Of a stretch of DNA of 64,000 bases, positions 187 through 34,745 are shown piece by piece. Positions within the stretch are counted from its first letter, which is position 1; the number at the start of each line of letters is the position of its first letter. The notes below the pieces were generated by a model. That model was not told where the DNA came from. It did no database searches and saw only the letters and a program-made list of their open reading frames with translations. This DNA is from Clonostachys chloroleuca (lineage: Eukaryota; Ascomycota; Sordariomycetes; Hypocreales; Bionectriaceae), in NCBI GenBank assembly GCA_037952775.1, contig JBANAY010000003.1, positions 32,736,001 through 32,800,000 of the forward strand, given 5' to 3'. Made by a program: the position numbers and the translations under genes.

Positions 187-2687
187 GAATGAGAGCATCT
201 ACTACTTTGATGATTTTCTCGTCGCTCCTATACCCGAGACCTGCAATTGAATTACAAGCAGCCGGAATAGCGCCTTGGGGATTTATACGAATACACATCG
301 CATCGACCTTCCAGGTTTTAGGAGTCTTATGGATATATCCTGGGGGCAGGCAGTCCGGCATATCCATCTCCCTTTTATATCTAAACACACCCCGACATGC
401 AAGGGCGAATGTGGTACGATTTGGATATCAAACCACATCGGGCCCAAGCGTCGCTAGTTTTCGCCTATACACACGAGCTCATCAAAGCGGGGGACTGACT
501 GCTTCCATGTTAGAATTAGCAGTCCATGGATAGCGAATCGGGATGTGAAATAATTGATGGGCATGGCTTATTCGCTTCGCCATGACCTTCTCATTTACTC
601 AACTTTGGTGGCAGGTAACGCTCAGTCGTTGAGGACTATCGATCTTTCGGCTCCATTCCGACGGCATGGTGAGATCGATGGGCTCGAGAGTGGCACATTG
701 TGGCATAGCGTTCGTCTTCTGGGATTGTAGGTGGAGTTGGTCTAGCTTATAATTACTATGAATCGCATTGAATACAATAATTACAAAATGTGAGCCTGGC
801 CGGTAGAACTATGTTCCATGTATCAGAAACGTAGCGTCGTATGTGACACTCTGAGGTTGCATGTCTCAGACCTGCCGTTGAGACTTGATGGCTTTCTGAT
901 TCTCCATCTGTGGGTGGCGCATCTGACATCACCAATTTGTCTCCGGGACATGGCTGTAAGTTACCCAAAATGAGTGGACAACGTCCGAATTCGACAGTTT
1001 GGGCAGTACCTCCCTTTTCTGCATCCTTGTTTGATAGGACTCGGACGAAGGAAGGGCCCCTTCGTGGCGTTTATCCATCCATGATGACATGAACTACGGT
1101 GATGATCCACCCCAAGATGCCTGCGGTTGTCTTGCACCCCAGCTCATGACAGCCGATAGCAGCTGCGCCGGAACAGCACCTTGCTACCCCTCCACCGCTT
1201 GTTTGAGTCTGGGAGCTGTCCGGAGGAGAGATTCGACCGAGCTCTACGACGATAGCAGCGAACCAATCCTCTAACTGAAATCTCGTCTCCAGGCGACCTC
1301 GGTTTAGCCGTGGGCTGGATGGCGCAGGCAGGGAGAGCTCCCAGATCGAGCTCTGGCGGGGTGCATACGATGAGATGCAGGCTACAGCTGGTATGCACTC
1401 GGTTGCCACTGGAGACTGGCGCCGCCTGCGAGGGATAAACAGCCCAAGCTGCAGCAGGTCAGACAACACGCGCAGGCGAGAGGAACCAGTCTCCGCACTG
1501 GGACTGCACCAGACCAGGGCGCTGCAGGCTCGCCAGCAAATAGTGTCGTCGAGAAGAAGGGCCCCGGACTCGATCAGCAGTGGTAGTTGGCACCCTGCCG
1601 CTGCAGATGGATAGGGGTGACAGGCGGTGACGGGGCCCCATCCCCAATGCTCGACGCAGGTTGGACGAAGGGCCATGTACGATTATGTGCGGATGGCGAC
1701 GGTTATGTACGAGTGCATGCTTGGTGTGCAGCAACGAGCCAGGAAACGGCACCGCAGAAGCGCTGTCGGGCAGGTGTTAAATGTAGGCAAGTGCCAGCAC
1801 CAAGTAAACAATCGTCGGCCAAAACAACAACAAGCCTGAGCCTGCTCCGTGACAAAACACCAGCTGCGGCCGGTTTCCTCTCCTTCTTTCCACATCTTCA
1901 CCCTCACTTTCGCTTTCCTTAGCCTTTCTCCTTTCTCCAGTACTAACCCAGCAGGCCCTCACGCTCTCTCCGCACACGCACCCCTCGTCGCTCGCTCGCA
2001 ACCAGGACGCCCTCCGGATTTTGCGGCAGGGTTGTGATCAGCGCACGCTACAACCTTGAATCGGATCTTGCCCACCACCACCACAGCGACCCAATACGGC
2101 ACGCCTATATATCTGCAATTTCGCAGCCGCAAGACAGCCCGAATCAAGGCCCTTCCGACCTTGTGTGTGTGTGGTTCCCGGTGTCTTATTTTGGCACTCC
2201 ACCCCGCGAAGAGAGATTGCACCTACGAGTATGTTTCTGATATCTCCTTCCCTTCTCATACAAATACAAGTGCCTTAATTAGGACGTTATCTCATGCTAA
2301 TTCGTCCCTTGTGGATATAGTGCTTCATCGCTCCCGAGTTGTTGGCGATTCTTTGGCTTAGAGGTGCCGAAACAAAAGAAAGAACAAAGTCACCAGCTGC
2401 ATCCGTACCCGAAGAAGAAACGGTCGGCTGCAGGCGGGAAATAACCAGTTGCTGGGACAAGAGCAGAAAAGGGGAGACGAGAGACAACGGGCCGCGCCCC
2501 TCGCAGCCAGAACCAGACTCCAGGGAGGCTTTGGCACCACGGTCCCTGTAAACTCTCCTGGCCAGCTACCTAGGCTAGGCCTATTACCCGCTACGCTCCA
2601 GCTGGCAGGCACGCCAGCGCAGGTACAGCCGCTGCGTGGCAACCCCGGAACCCACCCAATCTGACCCGCTAAATCCCAGCCGCCAAA
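187..2687. other. Intergenic region and 5' region of the CLIP-like gene
   Basis: No convincing gene was found in these 2.5 kb. Open frames here (for example minus 1071-1676 and plus 1587-1922) have no family motif, no splice logic and no consistent coding text. The last part, about 1900-2680, is pyrimidine-rich and probably contains the promoter and 5' UTR of the following gene. Confidence 0.5.
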
Positions 2688-23662: not shown

Positions 23663-26600
23663 TGCGAGGAGAGCCGCAGGTCGAGGGCGAGGTGGATTCG
23701 GGAGCTGCTGCAGGAAGGGTGGTGGTGATGGCGGCGGACCAAGATATTGAGTTGTGTGAGTTCGGGGGGCTCAAGATGAGCATATGGCGCCGACATCAAG
23801 CGAAGGGACTGGCCGAGGTGCGCCACCATAGAGCTGCGTCTACTTGGCAAGTTTGGGACTGAAGGTCGATTTGATCTGAGAATATTAATATGCAGGCGGA
23901 CGCGACCGGGTCAGCTATCCTGTTGAGTCGGATACGAATAAATGGGACGGTTACTGCAACCGGCTGGCTGGAGGATGAATGGAGAGGAGGTGACTGGCAG
24001 CGGTCGTGGAGGTGGTGGTGGCTGGACAATTCGCGACGGCCAAGATACGAGACAACGGGACTTGCTACCTCAAGGTGGAAAGGTGCAGTGGGAAACCGGC
24101 AAGGGGTGCTGACCACCAGAAGCAGATGTGCAGGATGGCGCTGTTAAATTTGGCCGTTTTACGTAGAAGGCGCAAGAGGGAAGACGTAGGATGGTACCGC
24201 AAGCAGAGGTACCGCCAGATAGGCCAACCTGTCACCAAGAAGATGTGTGTTTTGAGGCACATGCATTGATGCGAACGCAACTTGGCCCACAGTTGCCCAC
24301 CTACAGCCTACAGGGGCCTCAGGCCTGCTCCAGGTGTCCGCCTGCGCTTGGAGCGCTAGCACGACCGACTGAAGCAGGTGTTGTACATTCACTGCAGTTA
24401 GCCCAGATAAGCGGTACCTCGGCGCCAGGTAGCTCTGTGGCATCCCAAGATCGTCGCTGCTAACATGTTGGATTTCCGGCGTCGAGTGGACCATGGGTTC
24501 GAGGCGAGGGAGCCAGCGAGCCCGTTCCTAACTGGGTCGATGTGCCATTTGCTGCCCCTCGAGAGTCGATCTGTGTTGGAGGCCCGGGCGGGGAGCTGCC
24601 ACTCGACACCTGCTTGGGTACCACAAGATACTGCGCTGCCAAGTATCTCCAGCCAGCCATGGGACCAAGCCGCCCGCGCCAGGCAGGCACAAGACCGCCG
24701 GCTAGAAGCTGCGGCGTGCCACGGAAGGTCACTGGACGAGCTGCCAGGCAGACAGGTGCCATTGCAATCAGGATAGATGTGTTCATGGGTGCCTGTGAAA
24801 CTGACAGTGACAGGGAGCCAATCAGCAAGCACATCACATCGGTCGGTTTCCTCGCAGCACCTGACGTCGTCGCAAGCTGGCTCCTTCCACTGCCAGTGCC
24901 GAATCACGGACCAAATCTCTCCCCAGTAATAGCCATGAGCTTAATGGCGGAAACTGGAGTAGGATGATGCTTGGGCGTGTGTGTTGTAACAAGATTGCGG
25001 TGGAGAGTGGGTGGTGGTTGTTGACGCATCATAGTGCAGCGCACGTAGTGGATGAACTACACCACAGAACCCTTGAGAAGCATCCTGAAACGGGTCTCTG
25101 GCGAACCCCTAAATTAGAACAAGCGGGGTAGGTTGGCGAAGCTGCCTATCAAGTGGCTGAAATAACAGGCAGGGACTTGTTTTCTTATCAATTATACTCA
25201 TCACAATTAAATTGTTCTATGATCTTTAGCTTGGTCTATGTTTGTTACTAGGTTCATTGTTTCGATGTTGTGTTGAAATCCAAAGCTGGAGGTCCTGGGT
25301 GTGCCATGTTTTATGTTAATCGCTTGCCATCCTTCTCAGATAATTCTTCCGCGCGATTAAGCCAGCAATGACGTCCCCTGCCTTCGTCCGTGGCTTTGGT
25401 GTCCATGCTCAACCTTGAAACAATGCAGTGCTATTTGGCATGGAGCTACATACGCACGCATACAAAGCAGACACTTTGATGGCAATGAATCTAGGTTCCC
25501 AACAAAAGGCGGGGAACTTGGAGATTTTGGGTGGGGTCATGGCTCGGCCGGCACACAAAACAGGCAGAGCATCTTCCCATACAACAGGCCTTGGCATCCA
25601 GAGTATTGGAGGTGGAGAGGACTATGCCGTTTGTTCCATATCTATCAGCAGCCTCTTTGTCGGTGCATAAATAAAAACCCACACAGAAAGCGATAAATAT
25701 AAGCCGTTAACAACGAGGGAAGTCTCCAACTACAACGGAGCTGTGGCCGTAGGAGGCAGCCGGTCTCGGTATGCAGATCTCGCTGCACACGGCGAGAGTC
25801 GGCTGGATTAGCCATTGTCGAATTCATGAATTGGCTTGCCAAGATACGGGTGAGCAGGGTTGAGTCCTATACGCTCCTCGTCATAAAGAGAGAGAGTTCA
25901 TGAGCTGGAACCCCCCCCCCCCCCCCCCCCCAAAAAAAAAGCATCTCGTCACTTCGAGCCCGGGACTGTGTTCAGTTAAAGCTTATTCTCTACAGAAATT
26001 CTGAAAATATGCAGAAGATGCCAAAAGTAATTGAATGAATAGAATTCTTCTTTTCAAAGAGGTAGGAGCTGAAATGGGGCGCAAAGAAGGGGTTCTCATG
26101 CAACTCACAATTGCATCTTAATATATAACTAGAACTAAGAAAGATGAGGATCGGATAGTCTAGAGGGATGGGCAAAGAGTAATCAACAAAGAGAGTCCTA
26201 TACTAGAATATCACTCGACTGTATCGATGTCTATCTCGCTTGCGGAGTGGGTCGTCCAGCTTGGAACAGGGCCTCACTCCACGAAACGCTACCAAAGGAG
26301 TTCTATGGCTTGTTGCTTTTTGTCGCAAACCGGGGAAACCTCCTAATACCAGTAGGTCAAGATAGATTATCTGTTATCCTTACATTTCTAAGTTCTATAA
26401 AGATAAGAGGGAGAGAGAAGCTATCTGGAGAGCCAACTAAGAGCAGGCCTACTTTAACAGTTAGGTTTATAGAAGTGATTAGTCTGATTCTCACCTCAAT
26501 AACGGAAGTCATCCAACAAAACCCGAACCAGTCGACACATAGTGGGTTGCATAACGCACTTCTACACCAAAGAGAAGGTCTGTATCCGACCAGTTTCAAA

Positions 26601-26923
26601 ACAATAGGAAAGACCAGACCCAAAATGCTAGAGCAAGGTGTATATGAAACTTCTTTTTACTACTTTACTCTGCCCTTCTGTGACTCAAAAGTATTTTCCA
26701 GTGTATATGTAGTAAGCAAAATACTCACACCAAGCTCACATAAACCAAACCCAACTTGGATTGTATATTACCAGGAAATGCCCAACCAGTATCCTACTAA
26801 AATGTCAGCGATTTCTATTCACTTTCCAAACGCTGTCAAAAACCCAATCAATTTTCATTCGAATTTTCTGCAACCACCCTTGTATTGTCCACCTGCTGGA
26901 CAGCTGGGTGGTATGTCGCCATC
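23663..26923. other. Intergenic region and left border of the accessory island
   Basis: No supported gene in about 3.2 kb. From about 25.2 kb the base composition becomes visibly more A+T-rich. A frame at plus 26247-26927 (226 codons) is long but begins with GTG rather than ATG and shows no motif. Confidence 0.45.
25911..25940 (+). repeat. Poly-C tract followed by poly-A
   Basis: About 21 C then 9 A without interruption, in intergenic sequence at the left side of the accessory island. The exact length is not reliable. Confidence 0.9.
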
Positions 26924-27473
26924 TTAAATCCATTCTCGGACTTTTTTTGTTTTTATATGAACAACAACATCGAATTTTTCACGTTTGTTCGGCGGGAAGA
27001 CACATCTGATGAGCCCGGGGTTGCACTCGTTCTCGCCGAAGGTGTCGGTACGACCGGGTATCAAAGGTATGTGAAGCCAGCCTTTACTGTTCCGATTTGT
27101 CCTTGGATTGTAGATGGACCCTGGGTTGGTCCCCAACGGAAGTTTCTCCTTGTTCGCATAAAAACTAGGGTATTTGGCGGAGGAAACAGCATTCTTGGCT
27201 GGACTAACGATAGATTGAACAAGGGTATCGTATAACCCTTGTAGTTGTTCCCGAGCCTGCTTCGCATATATCCAACTTTGGCCCTGTTTACCGTCATAGG
27301 GTATTTGGTCAAAGTCATACTGATGTTTACGGAATTAGACCTGGAATCCAAGAAGACGGGGATGGACATACGTAAGAAGAATTAGTTGGCGAACGCTTCA
27401 GACTCAATGTACTTTCGGGAGCTACTGATTCAATATCATCCGTATACAAAGTGGGAATCTTTGAATTAGTCAT
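26924..27473 (-). CDS. Small RNase N1/T1-like protein with altered active site
   Basis: Two exons, 27372-27473 and 26924-27319, with donor GTATGT, branch-like TCTAATT and acceptor ACATCAG; phases agree and give 165 residues. The second half follows the layout of fungal guanyl-specific RNases (RNase T1): YP-x-x-Y-x-N-x-E (residues 84-92), then W-x-x-x-PL (115-120), then NPG-x-x-R-x-VF (134-142), then VVVHIK (152-157). By that alignment the T1 catalytic positions His40, Glu58, Arg77 and His92 correspond to Ser86, His117, Arg139 and His155, so two are replaced. The protein may be inactive or changed, as in the RNase-like effectors of some plant-pathogenic fungi. No signal peptide is visible; a hydrophobic MCCLYLV frame on the same strand around 27660 might be an upstream exon, but I could not join it. 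The family call is from pattern only. A degraded second copy lies at about 31.3-31.8 kb. Confidence 0.5.
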
Positions 27474-29516
27474 GATTGCACTTGCTGGTGCGTTTGTGTA
27501 GGCTAAAGAGAAGTGATTTCGCCTGGAATAGAGTGCTAATAGTCATGGGAAGCACATTGTATTCCTAGAGGGAGGCTCTCTCGTTGCATTAATCCCAGTT
27601 CAGCGCTCTGAGGCGCCCAGACAAGATATAGACAGCACATGGTCGAGCTAACGCTGCCATGAAAAGCCATTTGTTCTAGATCAGTGTGAAGTAATCTTAC
27701 AATTGGTCTTTGTTAACCCAATAAACGCATCACAAAAGAAGTAGATATATGACCGCCACGCCTTAGTCTAACTCCTAGGCTATGCAGCTATTAGACCAGC
27801 AAGTAGGTAACACGGGAAATGGCACACCCAAATGAAGACCTAAATAACCACCTAAGCATAATAGACACCTAAATAAACATCTGAATATCTAAATAAGTAG
27901 CTAATTCTAAGCAGAGACTAGAGAATGTCAATATTTAGACCTGGATATCTTTTCTTCCTTCAATCTTATTTTAGTAATTTATTAGCTACTAGCTATGAAA
28001 GATAATAGATCAAATGTGTATCAAGGGAGTACTTCGGTATACCATTTCCTATATCACCCACTTGACCAGCCAAACCAATCAAAGCATCTGGGTGCCGTCG
28101 GTGAGATCCGGCCTGACGGGCGGACCAACGGCATTGGACTGTTGTATGAGCTTATCGTAACGCGTGGCGTCGTCAGATATTTATGTTCAAGAGCCTCAGG
28201 TATACGGAAAAGTTCCTGCTATGCAGACTAGATAGGACGAGCTACCTATTGATTGAGCAAGTCGTCTATTATATACCTAAGGTGCTGAGGCTGGATCTCC
28301 CAAATATACTCTCCATCTACTTATAAGATTCAAACGGTGCTTGAAGATACCTACGGATGCTTTATAATATCGACCTCATAACGTAAATCTCACGGATAAT
28401 AAAGCTGGTCTAGGCAAAGTGCTTCGGCGGCACCTAACAATTGGTGGGCTATCAAATGTTTTCTGTATAGTTATTAGCGTTTTAATCACATCCTAGTAAG
28501 CTAAATGCTGTGCCTGAGCTGGGAGATATATACGAAATCTTGCTAATCTGCGCGTCTCTCTCATCGGGCATGGCAATGTCACTCCTGAACGGGCTCGCCT
28601 TCATTGCAGATCAAATATTGAAATTAAGACCAAGGGGAAAGAATAAAAGCATGAAATCACAGATTGAGGGGCTATCAGGAACTTCCTGGTAGATGGCTGC
28701 TAAATTCTAGAAACCGGTGAGTGTGCACCTGTCCTCCACACCTACCTATCCATTTATGCCCCCCATTGAGACTTCATAGCCGGAACCCTGACCATGGACT
28801 CTCCGGTCAACTAGGCTGAGCAGGAGACTAAGCTTTAGTAAGCTCAGCTAACAGGGGAAATCGATGTCGCAGGAGTGGGTTTGTGGCTTGCTGGGAATGA
28901 CAAAAGAAAAGAAAACGGTTTCATGACAATGGCCCGCTGACCAGCCACGAACTCATTGTTCTCCCTAGGGCGCTTGTCTGGATGACTTCAAATAACCAAA
29001 CGATCTGCGCGTATTGCCGGCAGACAAATCCATAGGCTGAAACTATCCAGTGAGAAAAAGAAGAGGCAAAAGAAAGAAAGGGAAAGGAGGGCAAACAACA
29101 AAGAAAATCGTGAGGAACCGGTGGCTTCTAGTAGTAACAAGCATGAATTTAAGTCACAAAGCGACCTAACACAAAGTATAGCCAATATTAAACCTTCACC
29201 GAAGGGCCATTGTCTTCTTTACGTATTTTCAAATGAGTTTATAGACACTAGTTGGATACGCTTTTCCGTTGGTGATTGTAAAGTTTTGTCTAGGCAACGC
29301 AGCTTTTAAAAAAAGCACTCGATTGTACTTTCATATCGCTTTTCTTCTGTCCGACTAGTGTATCAATGATTCCACGGGAGTATATAGAGTCAAATGATCT
29401 CGCGTAAATTAAAACCCCAACTCTGCTTCCTGTAAATCAAAATTGGATCTGTTCTCTTCAATTCTTAACATCTCTATGTCCTCATTCTTCGCTAAAACCT
29501 GAAAATTATAGACAAT
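27474..29516. other. Shared upstream region of a divergent gene pair
   Basis: About 2 kb separate the starts of the RNase-like gene (minus) and the DUF3632-like gene (plus). No gene is seen inside. The sequence is A+T-rich with short runs of related ATAAATAxCTAAATA-type text at 27840-27910. Confidence 0.4.
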
Positions 29517-29807
29517 ATGGACCTCATAGACAACATAGACGACATGAACAATATGCATAACATGGACGACATGGACGGTGCAGACGATGAGGACAATATT
29601 GATAATATAGATAACACAGACGACACGGACGACACGGACGACACGGACGGCATGAACAACACGGACGGCATGGACAACATGGACGGCATGGACGGTATAG
29701 GCGACATGAACGATACAGACGACTCGGACGGCATGGACAACATGGACGATACGGACGATACTGAGGATAAGTACGGCATGGACGACATGGACGACAAGGA
29801 TGGCAAG
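29517..29807 (+). repeat. In-frame 9-base coding minisatellite (about 32 units)
   Basis: A degenerate 9-base unit of type GAC-GRC-AYG is repeated from the start codon onward and encodes [D/N]-[D/G/N]-[M/T/I] triplets. The unit length is a multiple of three, so copy-number changes keep the frame. The opposite strand is also open here, as a Ser/Met/Val repeat, which is a by-product of the repeat. Confidence 0.9.
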
Positions 29808-30906
29808 GCCGGCACGGTCGCCATCTACCGCATGAACAACGATGAGGTTCTTCGGCTCGCCATGCTCAACGCGCTCAATGACGAAAAAAACTATCTGGTT
29901 CCTGTAGAGTCACGGAACCTAGACCTACATCACGCAAGAATTGCTTCTAATGTTCTACTCAGATTCAAGTCGAACGATCCCAAGTCCGACTTAGACATGG
30001 ATGAATTCTTCTTTTCCGCAATGGATGTCTGCGAAACCTCAATAAGTGTTTATTCATTCGCCGAAAACCATTGCCGGATTCTGGCTATCGCTTGTGAGAT
30101 GTGCTACCGCCTAGGAGGAGGCGTCAATGTACAAGAAATTAAGGAAAACACGCACGACATGGCACGATACTAACGCTATGATTCATAGGACCGATGGGGT
30201 CCGCATACCCTACCCGACCACTGTACCGAGATTTGGGATGAGGACAGTAAGAAAGTGGTTCACCCCTTACTTAAGACCTGGGACTAATGCCATTTAAGTT
30301 CCCGACGAAACGCATGAAAACGCACAGCTATTCCTCTTCGGCTGGGAGAAACTAAATTCATTCCTCTCACATCTTGTGAGCCGTGGATATCACGATGGCC
30401 TATGCCTGGGCTTGTTGGAGATCGGGAGAGCACTGGAACAGCCTATAATTAAAGGGTGTCCTTTATTAATGCGCTGCCGAGTGCGGGTAGCCGTGGAGTG
30501 GATAATAAATTGCGGCGACCTTTTGTTGGCGGCAATGATCAATCAGAGGCACGACAGCGTCGACGAAGCCATGCAACCGGGCCCGATCTACGGGGAAGGA
30601 CTCCCCTTTCTGAGCCCGGATCGGTGGGGATTTTGGAAGATGCGGCTCAGAAAGTTTAAAGTGAGAGGTGGCTTGGACTTCGAGACTGAAAACCGTGTAA
30701 CCACTGCCTTGAAAGTGATGCGGGAACCGTCCGGATTGGAGAGGCGGAACTCATCGCTGGAGCGTGCTATCAAGAAACAACTGGAGATTGTTGCCACAAA
30801 GGGTCGATCCATGGCAATTGATGCCGCGAAAGTACGCTACCGCCGAGAGACTGTCTGCCGCTATTCGAGATCAAGGTTGTCGAAGTCTGGTAGAGGTAGG
30901 CAGTAA
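29517..30906 (+). CDS. DUF3632-like protein with acidic repeat N-terminus
   Basis: Three exons: 29517-30128, 30189-30246 and 30299-30906. Intron 1 has GTACAAG, a perfect TACTAAC branch and CATAG; intron 2 has GTAAGA, GACTAAT and TTTAAG. Phases agree and give 425 residues. After the acidic repeat (residues 1-97), the text has the feel of the fungal DUF3632 family: a helical region, then VEWIINCGDLL, then a W-x-FWK-x-R-x-x-KF segment and a C-terminal helix with ALKVMREPSGLERR. DUF3632 proteins are expanded in filamentous ascomycetes and have no known function. The second copy at 33.8 kb shares the intron positions and the WIINCGD core but lacks the acidic repeat. The gene lies divergent to the RNase-like gene. 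The family assignment is from remembered pattern and is moderate. Confidence 0.6.
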
Positions 30907-31300
30907 GTTAGCCTGTCCCTCAAGTGCGACTCATAGCTCACGTCGCCCGTGGCACACTAGAACCTCCAATTAGCAGCTCGTGGTTTCTATCTGGTAGTTT
31001 TATTCAAATAAACCGCTAATATTGATAACTGTTACTCTCCATGTCGTAAGTTTCAAGCTCGCGTTGGATTGCAGATGAGAGTCGGAAGCATCTAGTATCC
31101 AGATTTCTCTGATATTAGTAATAGAACCATCTATATCACAACCCACATCTTGAAAATTAAAGATCCATTACCTTTTACCGTACTCTGTCCGATGATGTCC
31201 AACCGGAAACTAAACGTCCATGCATATCAGCTCGCAAAACATCTCCAAACTGTCAACTGCCTGCTTCCACTAGCTGTCTCGTCACCAATTCCACTCATTT

Positions 31301-31775
31301 TATCCTTCCTTATGGCTGGGTAGTATTTTGCCATTCGAAACACTTCTGACCCTAGGATATGATGACCGACATCAGAGTCAGAAACATCGCTAGTGACAAA
31401 GAAGCTCCTTATCATACCAGTGTGATCCGTGGCGCTGAAGAAGGTCTTTTTCCGGTTAGGAATCAGCGTATGATGAAGCTAGCCTTCGGTGGATCGACCT
31501 GTCACAGGATCGAGGATTAATTCGGATTTGGTATCGAGACGAAGTCCATGTTTGCTCTTGTTTCCAAAGTAACTACCTAGGAAGCCGACACGTAGCAGGG
31601 GAAGGGTTATGTTGAGAAGGTTGAGACGGCGTGACTAGAAATTGGTACGCTGAAATGGGGAGGCTGTACAAGTAACACCAGCCTGTTGCGCTCGGGCGTG
31701 TCGAGCATACATCCATGTTTTACCCTTTCGCCCATTCTAGGGCGTTCCGTCAAAGTCGTGCTGGTGATTATGTAA
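31301..31775 (-). pseudogene. Degraded copy of the RNase-like gene
   Basis: On the minus strand, an acceptor CACCAG at about 31761 is followed by text parallel to exon 2 of the 26.9-kb gene (HDFD..P, then GKTWMYAR, then later LIPNRKKTFF and GMIRSFF). Stops interrupt it: TAG at about 31737-31739, another in the middle, and a TAG where the intact copy has the Trp of its GWLH motif. The segment around the expected His/Arg positions has also diverged. It is therefore a relic. The limits are approximate. It stands in the same orientation and about 4.4 kb downstream of the intact copy. Confidence 0.6.
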
Positions 31776-33246
31776 GTTAGAAGTGAAGCTGAAAAGGGTA
31801 GAAGTGTATATACACACGACGAGGTAGTCGGTGGGCGGTCCGAAGCCAGTGGATCATTGGATGTTGGAGGCCCTCACTCGTTTGTACAAGGAGTGCGCGC
31901 GTCCTGACTTGCCATGGTTTTAATATAGTTACAAAGCAGACCTAAAGCCATTGCTTGCTTTTAGATTTGTTCAGGTCAAAGAACAAAGTGCTAGTCCCTG
32001 GAACAGAGTCTCAGTGGACATGGCCATTATATTATATCCCTAGAGCTCGCGTCTCCGATCGTCTAAGCCATGGGTATCTGAACATGGGCTTAGATGGTGT
32101 AGATAGGTCACTGTAGAACTGACATAGCCATTACCTGCCGTAGGTTTCATGACGAGATCAGAAGAACCCCGGGATTGGCTTTCATTGATCTATAGAAATA
32201 AAAGGCCAGCTAACCGCCGCGTTTCAGTTTGAACCCAAGGCTGTCGGATAAAGTAGTCAGACTAACGGAAACGTCTAGCTGCAACAGGTGAGGCGGTGGT
32301 CTATACAACACACCCAGGGGTGTTACAAGTGGGCGAACGACGCCGGGCTGTAACATGAGTCTGTCATAAAGTCCATAACGTTCTAAGTTGGTATGCGACA
32401 GCCAACAGCTATGTACTGCACATTCATTCCTTGAAAATAATATGAAGGTAGAATACTGTCAGCAACGCGACCAAGTTGGAAGTATCGTGGAGCAACCCTT
32501 GAGGCTAAAAGTTGTGTAAGATTTGGCAAAGCTATTGCAGTTCAAGAGCAGCAGTCGCATGGAATAATTCTTATCCTGCGGTGTAGACTAAGGAACACCA
32601 GTTGTTAATTTCATATGCCCCCCTGCCATTTTCACAGGTAACACTGTTGTTCGGTAGCTGATTCTCCACTTCCGTGTTGGATACAAATAGTACTTAAAGG
32701 AACCTGAAAAGGCATTGGCATGTCGGAATCAGTGCATGATTGCGAATGGCTGCGAAGCGAATCCTGGTACAGTACTTCCACGACATGCAGAAGTTGGTGA
32801 GTTGTTAATCACTTGCTAAATAGGTATATGTAGCTATTGGCATATTAATCCCATCCACCTTAAGTTCCATATTGTACTCTATTCACTGTCTTGAGGATAG
32901 CAGCTCAAAGTCTTACTGTTATACAGGGTCTCTGTAATAGTATTTCTTATTGCTAAAGGGGACAGCTCATACTGAAGCTCAGGTACTGAACTCAACACAA
33001 AGGGGAAGAAAATAAAATACGGCTATAGAAAGAGAGGTCACCAGAGGATTCTTTGATAAGTATTTCTCACTTCTAAAATCCTATGAGACTGCATCTGTTT
33101 TTCTCCAGAGTACTAAGATAGAAAACTGGGAATTCCCGTGCCAGGGATGAGGATTGTCTGATAAAAAGGCTAAAGTTCAATTATGCTAGAAGAAAGTAAC
33201 CAGCATATTATGAGCGGCTTTATCACTTGTGGCCCTCTTCGAATAC

Positions 33247-33247
<1 letters not shown>

Positions 33248-33294
<47 letters not shown>

Positions 33295-33297
33295 AAA
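33248..33297 (+). repeat. Poly-A tract (about 34 A, G, 15 A)
   Basis: A nearly pure A run between the relic and the second DUF3632-like copy. It could mark the 3' end of an inserted retro-copy or be a simple slippage tract; no target duplication was recognised. Confidence 0.9.
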
Positions 33298-33798
33298 GAA
33301 ACTCAACAGCATCCAGCTCGTTAGTAGGAACCCATTGTTCGCCCCATGACATTTAGGTAGCTGAGAGGCTAGAACCACAACGTGATATGTGCGTACACCT
33401 AGTAGACAATCGCGGGTAAAAAAGAAGAATGACATCTACAGGGATGCTGTGATCTCTTCTGTGGGTGGTGCTAAAACCTGGGCGTTTCTATATAGCTCTA
33501 GGCAACAGCTGCGTTTGGGAGTGACGATCATGCCTTTCGTGCGCCCTCCAAAGACCGTGCTCTCAATGAACGCAGATAGACCACAAAACTTTTTAAATAC
33601 CCCCTTGGTTTATTATGGACAAGGTAGCCTCAGTCAAAGCTATGCATTGCGCTACAGGATCCTTCAGTCCGATCGATATACCAATCAATACATGTATAGA
33701 TGACAGTTATAAAACAACAAGCCCCGCACTTCTTCTCTATAGGTAGATAGTATATACTTACATTTCGTACACAACTAGCAGGCATGCGCGCCTACTGA

Positions 33799-34745
33799 AT
33801 GACAGTGCCAGAAGCCGTGCAAGAAGCCCTGTTCGACACGCTTGATGGTGGCCTCCAACGTCTAGTAACTGCACATCCACGGGATCCACGGGATGTCGAA
33901 ATCGCATACGAAATTTTGAACTGTAGGTCTCGTCAGAAACTAAATATCTTTGAGGCCATATATGACATTTGCTTCTGTTTTCTACCTAGCGATGACAGGT
34001 TTCGAATTCTGACTATCGCTCTTGATATGATCTACCGGCAACAGAGAGCTCATAGCAAAAGAAACGCGGTACGTTGAACTAGGAGAAGGTGTAAGAAGCA
34101 AGCGGTCACTACAAACTAAGGTGCCATGATTCGCAGGACGACTGGTCCCCCGTTTGGCTCCATGCCCACTGCACCAAGATGTATCAGTTTTGTGAGAGAT
34201 TGACCACCTCCCTTCTTAAGAGCTGACACTAAATACCAGTCAAGGTCCCGAAAAGGAAGCATTTAGCCCCCCTGTGGATCTCGTCTTTTGGGGGAAATTA
34301 AATTCCGTTTTCTCAAATCTTGTTGGCCGCGGTTTAGTTGTGGACGGGGACATGGTTTCGAGGAGATCCAGAGAGCACTGGAAGAGCCCACGATAGAGGG
34401 GGCCGTCATGGACTGTCGGGTACGTGGGTAGCGGCTGAGTGGATTATCAACTGCGGTGACATTCTGTTCACGGAACTGAACCTTGTAGGGCTTGAACACC
34501 CAGAGTTGGGCCCGGGATTGCAGCAGTGGGAACTCTGGAGGAAGCGGCTGGCTAAGTTTGTTCAGTCAGAGAGTCTTGGCCTTAAGGACAAGGCTAAGAA
34601 ACATGCGGCTGCTGCACTGAGGTTGATGGAGGAGCCGTCCGAATGGGAGAGACGGGCTTCATCTGCGGAACACGCCATCAAGGAATATATGAACATAGGT
34701 GGCGCAAGGGAGCGCTCCCTGGCCAAAAGTGCACCCTACATATGA
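33799..34745 (+). pseudogene. Second DUF3632-like copy, frame disrupted
   Basis: This copy parallels the 29.5-kb gene. Exon 1 is 33799-34068, exon 2 34137-34191 (DDWSP...HCTK; the other copy has HCTE at the same place), and exon 3 starts near 34240. The intron positions are shared with the first copy. In exon 3 the conserved text moves through three frames: KLNSVFSNLVGRG, then FEEIQRALEEP...CRVR, then VAAEWIINCGDILF to the stop at 34743-34745. The first shift sits at a four-G run (34346-34349), the second at GGG 34436-34438, and the join of exon 2 to exon 3 is also off by one. The acidic repeat of the first copy is absent. It may be a true pseudogene, or a real gene with assembly indels as elsewhere in the window; three separate shifts make decay more likely here. 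Confidence 0.6.

Follow-up and report, generated by a model that had tools for sequence, protein, structure and literature searches.

In barnase-barstar and other RNase toxin-immunity pairs the RNase gene adjoins the gene of its partner. DUF3632 (PF12311) is a protein domain that, to our knowledge, has no known function. According to excerpts of published work, a DUF3632 orthogroup (OG0000050) underwent a change of 7, an expansion, in the ancestor of the mycoparasitic Clonostachys subgenus Bionectria (PMC7896725), grasses acquired a DUF3632-like gene from Epichloe by lateral transfer (PMC7670438), and constitutive CLR-2 expression in Neurospora upregulates genes with DUF3632 domains (retold in PMC10714830); none of these excerpts states a biochemical function. 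Here we describe a locus of Clonostachys chloroleuca in which a DUF3632 gene stands beside a gene resembling RNase N1/T1. It lies in a stretch of 64,000 nucleotides (hereafter the window; assembly GCA_037952775.1, contig JBANAY010000003.1, positions 32,736,001 to 32,800,000), part of a 59.4-Mb genome in 4 contigs. Among the titles and abstract starts listed by searches of open-licence PMC papers, none is about this pair.

The locus probably reflects birth-and-death evolution of two linked, fast-changing, lineage-specific genes, with the RNase-like one likely being a cytosolic protein of T1 fold. The adjacency of the two genes is best taken as linkage, and a functional partnership is possible. 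In unit 1 the RNase-like gene on the minus strand (26924-27473) and the DUF3632 gene on the plus strand (29517-30906) are divergent, and some 4 kb further downstream the arrangement is repeated with gene order and strands unchanged. An earlier note on this DNA had described such a tandem repeat. Its coordinates are correct, as are its offsets of 4441 bases between the RNase-like landmarks (27325 vs 31766) and about 3945 bases between the DUF3632 landmarks (30417 vs 34362). The RNase-like relic of unit 2 matches RNase-like exon 2 with E = 1.7e-15 (SEG off, window-sized database) and the DUF3632 copies match each other with E = 9.5e-18. Moreover, after removal of the transposon and the poly-A tract the intergenic parts of both units align with a score of 1443. 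Sixty dinucleotide shuffles of one side reached a mean of 1202 (standard deviation 48, maximum 1333), the reverse complement 1155 and five other pieces of the window 816-1063. Since the score exceeds all 60 shuffles, the duplication is probably continuous, though weak at the DNA level. Gene order, strands and intergenic alignment agree, and the co-duplication proposed in the note is real. One correction concerns the second DUF3632 copy, which is broken as well: exon 3 is spread over three frames (34247-34333, 34354-34425 and 34428-34733), and the PF12311 match in its last open stretch reaches only E = 0.034, below the cut-off.

The difference of 496 bases in spacing corresponds approximately to an insert of about 265 bp found in unit 1 only, together with the Asp-rich repeat (~300 bp) that DUF3632 copy 1 carries, minus other gaps. 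The insert resembles a miniature inverted-repeat transposable element (MITE), with terminal inverted repeats of ~30 bp and, judged by eye, direct repeats of 5 bp (ACCAG). At least 23 further sites in the genome have it, including a piece of 45 bases, and short direct repeats stand beside all seven other copies whose ends were compared by eye. The whole locus forms an A+T-rich island, as the note had held: 1-kb windows between 26 and 35 kb have a GC content of 41-51%, the remaining ones 48-59%. Repeat-induced point mutation (RIP) is a possible cause of the decay. The TpA/ApT ratio is raised, at 0.84 in unit 1 and 0.97 in unit 2 vs 0.65 and 0.60 in the flanks, and the second RIP index amounts to 1.13 and 1.14 for the two units. 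The RNase-like relic alone shows RIP indices of 0.97 and 0.99, past both thresholds.

Table 1. Positions of the gene parts, relics and inserted repeat at the locus, in window coordinates.
Feature	Position	Strand	Basis or remark
RNase-like copy 1, exon 1	27372..27473	-	34 codons, no hydrophobic signal-like stretch; identity to relatives, donor read, hydropathy
RNase-like copy 1, exon 2 to stop	26924..27319	-	54% identity to P0001 over 126 columns
C-terminal tail of relatives, severed from copy 1	26851..26943	-	Other frame; tail matches of P0001 and P0005
MITE-like dispersed repeat, ~265 bp	27800..28064	.	Between both genes of unit 1; other genomic copies
DUF3632 copy 1, exon 1	29517..30128	+	Carries the Asp-rich repeat of 9-bp units (29517-29820); putative 3' splice boundary, placed by signals and P0002/P0003
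DUF3632 copy 1, exon 2 (short)	30189..30246	+	DRWGP stretch matches P0002 and P0003; boundaries inferred
DUF3632 copy 1, exon 3	30299..30906	+	PF12311 match; 69% identity to P0002
RNase-like relic (copy 2)	31269..31802	-	Three in-frame TAG; matches to exon 2 and relatives
DUF3632 copy 2, broken	33799..34745	+	Without Asp-rich repeat; exon 3 in three frames

Exon 3 of DUF3632 copy 1 passes the PF12311 profile clearly (E = 2.1e-12, 48.2 bits vs a cut-off of 23) and is one of 17 such matches in the genome. Its relative P0002 gave zero matches to PDB sequences at E up to 1. The Asp-rich repeat makes the N-terminus of copy 1 strongly acidic (41 D/E and 3 K/R in 99 residues). It is long in copy 1, shorter in C. 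solani, reduced to MDNMDD in C. rhizophaga and absent in copy 2. An A-rich long tract is located at 33250-33300 between the relic and copy 2.

Exon 1 of RNase-like copy 1 shares 70.6% identity with residues 1-34 of P0001 from C. byssicola and 76.5% with P0005. The intron donor GTATGT and the acceptor CAG were both read directly, resulting in a protein MTNSKI...SSY followed by YDFDQ.... A change of frame close to the end makes copy 1 stop early, so that ~30 C-terminal residues are missing. Whole-genome searches, in which the best candidates were scored, place RNase-like sequence at three sites among these candidates. The relic is found by the C. byssicola protein with E = 7.6e-18, and it scores highest, at 102 bits, with P0007 of C. 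rosea, compared with 79 bits for C. byssicola. On another contig, C4:10847335-10848923 (in L026) holds scrambled, overlapping RNase-like fragments from at least two partial copies. The two longest of them are 86% and 77% identical at the DNA level, and a fragment compared for signs of selection over 191 bases differs at 6 first, 8 second and 13 third codon positions. No DUF3632 match was found within the 30 kb examined near this C4 relic. Beyond the RNase-like gene as seen from the MITE, 25172-25340 is a possible related element: its stretch 25296-25327 is 72% complementary to the end of the MITE (27799-27830), and it has a match near C4:10856842-10857020. A Pfam search of two open frames in the right flank yielded zero matches at E 0.001.

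Relatives in other species were sought among annotated proteins sharing 5-letter words. The closest relatives of both genes are Clonostachys proteins, and members of the RNase-like family were found in Clonostachys, Hypoxylon and Daldinia. The RNase-like protein was found in four other Clonostachys species (C. solani, C. rhizophaga, C. rosea and C. byssicola). In two of these four a DUF3632 relative is annotated on a contig of equal length, which we took as one and the same contig within a species: P0003 and P0005 in C. solani (8200467) and P0002 and P0006 in C. rhizophaga (1355007). For C. rosea and C. byssicola the same search found no close DUF3632 relative. P0003 appears to be one gene model that spans the two tandem copies of DUF3632, part of its second half lying in a different frame, and the tandem would therefore be older than the split from C. 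solani. The third DUF3632 match, P0004, is a nearly identical reading of exon 1 of this locus.

In the DUF3632 tree copy 1, the copy 2 piece, C. rhizophaga and C. solani form a clade (97/96) apart from the 9 other loci included out of 16 other matches in the genome, the tree giving no firm order within the clade. When pairs are scored directly, L008, a distant paralogue (72.4 bits), is as close to copy 1 as the copy 2 piece is (65.1 bits). In the RNase-like tree copy 1 pairs with C. byssicola (97/96) and the relic is otherwise unplaced. These placements suggest that the copies parted before these species did, or nearly so.

The designation RNase N1/T1-like from the earlier note is only partly borne out. 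A low-confidence structure model weakly supports an RNase fold, with RALPH (RNase-like proteins associated with haustoria) effectors as best structural neighbours. Several searches weigh against this assignment. The PF00545 profile matches neither P0001 nor exon 2 at E up to 10 (HMMER filters drop most matches above ~0.1), nor P0005-P0009 at E up to 1, and a profile comparison of the family was no better than decoys. The same profile does find two other genes in the genome, the true RNase N1/T1 genes C3:11120720-11121099 and C3:15981522-15981903 (L009-L012), which have hydrophobic N-termini and two exons each. The family shows no Pfam match above cut-off, no NCBIfam match and, among PDB sequences, nothing below E 0.38, and PADLOC gave no match for P0008, P0005 and P0002. 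Foldseek alone produced no match at E 0.001 or better, with RNase U2B in the top row (E = 2.2); a first structure model from 2 sequences (predicted local distance difference test 31.8) was used as control only. Below-cut-off Pfam matches to Sua5_C (P0005, E = 0.097) and POM121 (P0009, E = 0.35) were taken as chance, as were PDB sequence matches to fumarylacetoacetase (E = 0.45) and cysteine desulfurase (E = 0.38). A bacterial origin was rejected, a scan of the genome_contigs set with alignment A4 giving 5 pattern matches and 0 confirmed.

Alignment A4 has the invariant columns Y68, S70, H97, R120 and H136. The corresponding T1 site positions we take to be Tyr38, His40, Glu58, Arg77 and His92. 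Mapped by motif order, the low-confidence model and these positions, His40 and Glu58 appear to be replaced by Ser and His in all seven family proteins. N-terminal hydropathy, our stand-in for a signal-peptide predictor, reveals no hydrophobic N-terminus in any of the seven, the first 40 residues scoring at most 0.57 vs 2.62 and 2.73 in the two true T1 genes. Five of the seven lack cysteine altogether and a conserved Cys pair is missing. The net charge is above zero in five of the seven. On the profile, N-terminus and cysteine tests we reject a secreted N1/T1 RNase. Because of the N-termini, the missing Cys pair and the two apparently changed catalytic positions we read the protein as most likely a cytosolic RNase fold with activity absent or altered.

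In another reading the RNase-like protein would be secreted or translocated as a RALPH-type effector directed at hosts or prey fungi, DUF3632 having a regulatory role. This is unlikely, and the effector role considered in the earlier note is unsupported by present evidence: all seven N-termini speak against it, and so does the missing Cys pair, although the disulphide is called universal in T1 RNases (excerpt of PMC6464244). The five site residues are moreover invariant in A4, whereas BEC1054 has Gln and Tyr at Glu58 and Arg77 (same excerpt). An orphan fungal family without RNase kinship, its short motifs resembling N1/T1 by chance beside a DUF3632 gene, would agree with the empty Pfam, NCBIfam and PDB searches and the decoy-like profile comparison; we consider it quite unlikely.

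A eukaryotic toxin-immunity (barnase-barstar-like) or killer pair, in which a harmful cytosolic RNase-fold protein would be neutralised by the partly strongly acidic DUF3632 protein, could account for the mostly basic, seemingly non-secreted RNase-fold protein, the acidic N-terminus of its neighbour, the joint duplication, the joint decay of unit 2 and the equal-length contigs in C. solani and C. rhizophaga. However, two T1 catalytic positions seem altered, copy 2 lacks the acidic repeat and C. rhizophaga has hardly any of it, no DUF3632 relative was found in C. rosea and C. byssicola, and the 30 kb examined at the C4 relic yielded no DUF3632 match. We regard such a pair as very unlikely, and the toxin-like nuclease role named in the note is unsupported by present evidence. 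Highly improbable in our view is a nuclease-immunity or killer locus made of a cytosolic T1-fold family with a re-built site (invariant Tyr, Ser, His, Arg, His, where a His-His acid-base pair would replace Glu-His), curbed by an adjacent, rapidly changing DUF3632 partner. If such a locus were true, DUF3632 would gain a function.

Birth and death of two linked genes is the explanation we prefer. Two lineage-specific genes, transcribed divergently and lying in an A+T-rich island, would have undergone tandem duplication as a single ~4-kb segment, at about the time when several Clonostachys species split or earlier. Unit 2 has since decayed, as its relic and broken frames show, and a further RNase-like relic lies on another contig. 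In unit 1 the RNase-like copy has lost its tail, as comparison with relatives shows, a transposon-like repeat has entered, and DUF3632 copy 1 carries the acidic repeat. The RNase-like protein would be cytosolic, of T1 fold and binding RNA or protein, and the DUF3632 protein belongs to a family expanded in these fungi. That the two genes form a unit, as suggested in the note, is plausible but unproven: they are co-duplicated here and lie on equal-length contigs in two of the four other Clonostachys species with the RNase-like protein, but at the sensitivity of the search C. rosea and C. byssicola gave no DUF3632 relative, and the 30 kb examined at the C4 relic held no match. Within a single genus such linkage may simply be synteny.

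Taken together, our data describe a small, apparently non-secreted family of probable RNase fold in Clonostachys, Hypoxylon and Daldinia that is linked with a DUF3632 subfamily. With no Pfam match above cut-off, no NCBIfam match, apparently no secretion and invariant residues at the presumed T1 active-site positions, two of them unlike T1, the family may serve as a test case for a re-purposed T1 fold inside the cell. For DUF3632, binding and rescue can be tested concretely on a neighbour that is linked, co-duplicated and probably RNase-folded.

Compared with RNase N1/T1 (PF00545), the family shares the predicted order of helix then strands, and YP, HxPL, Arg and FDV..H seemingly follow the order of Tyr38, Glu58, Arg77 and His92. 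It differs by the lack of a profile match, a signal-like N-terminus and a conserved Cys pair and by the inferred Ser and His at His40 and Glu58. With the RALPH effectors of Blumeria (BEC1054, AVRPm2, AVRa10, AVRa22) it has structural neighbourhood of the model and, it appears, an altered catalytic triad in common; RALPHs are secreted, seemingly in contrast to this family, whose invariant His and Arg also set it apart from BEC1054. DUF3632 copy 1 belongs to PF12311 by its profile score, and the subfamily is distinguished by the Asp-rich N-terminal repeat of copy 1 and C. solani. The pair resembles barnase-barstar pairs in a gene of probable RNase fold placed beside another gene, one partner being strongly acidic here, and differs from them in its patchy co-occurrence, a DUF3632 relative having been found in two of the four other Clonostachys species with the RNase-like protein.
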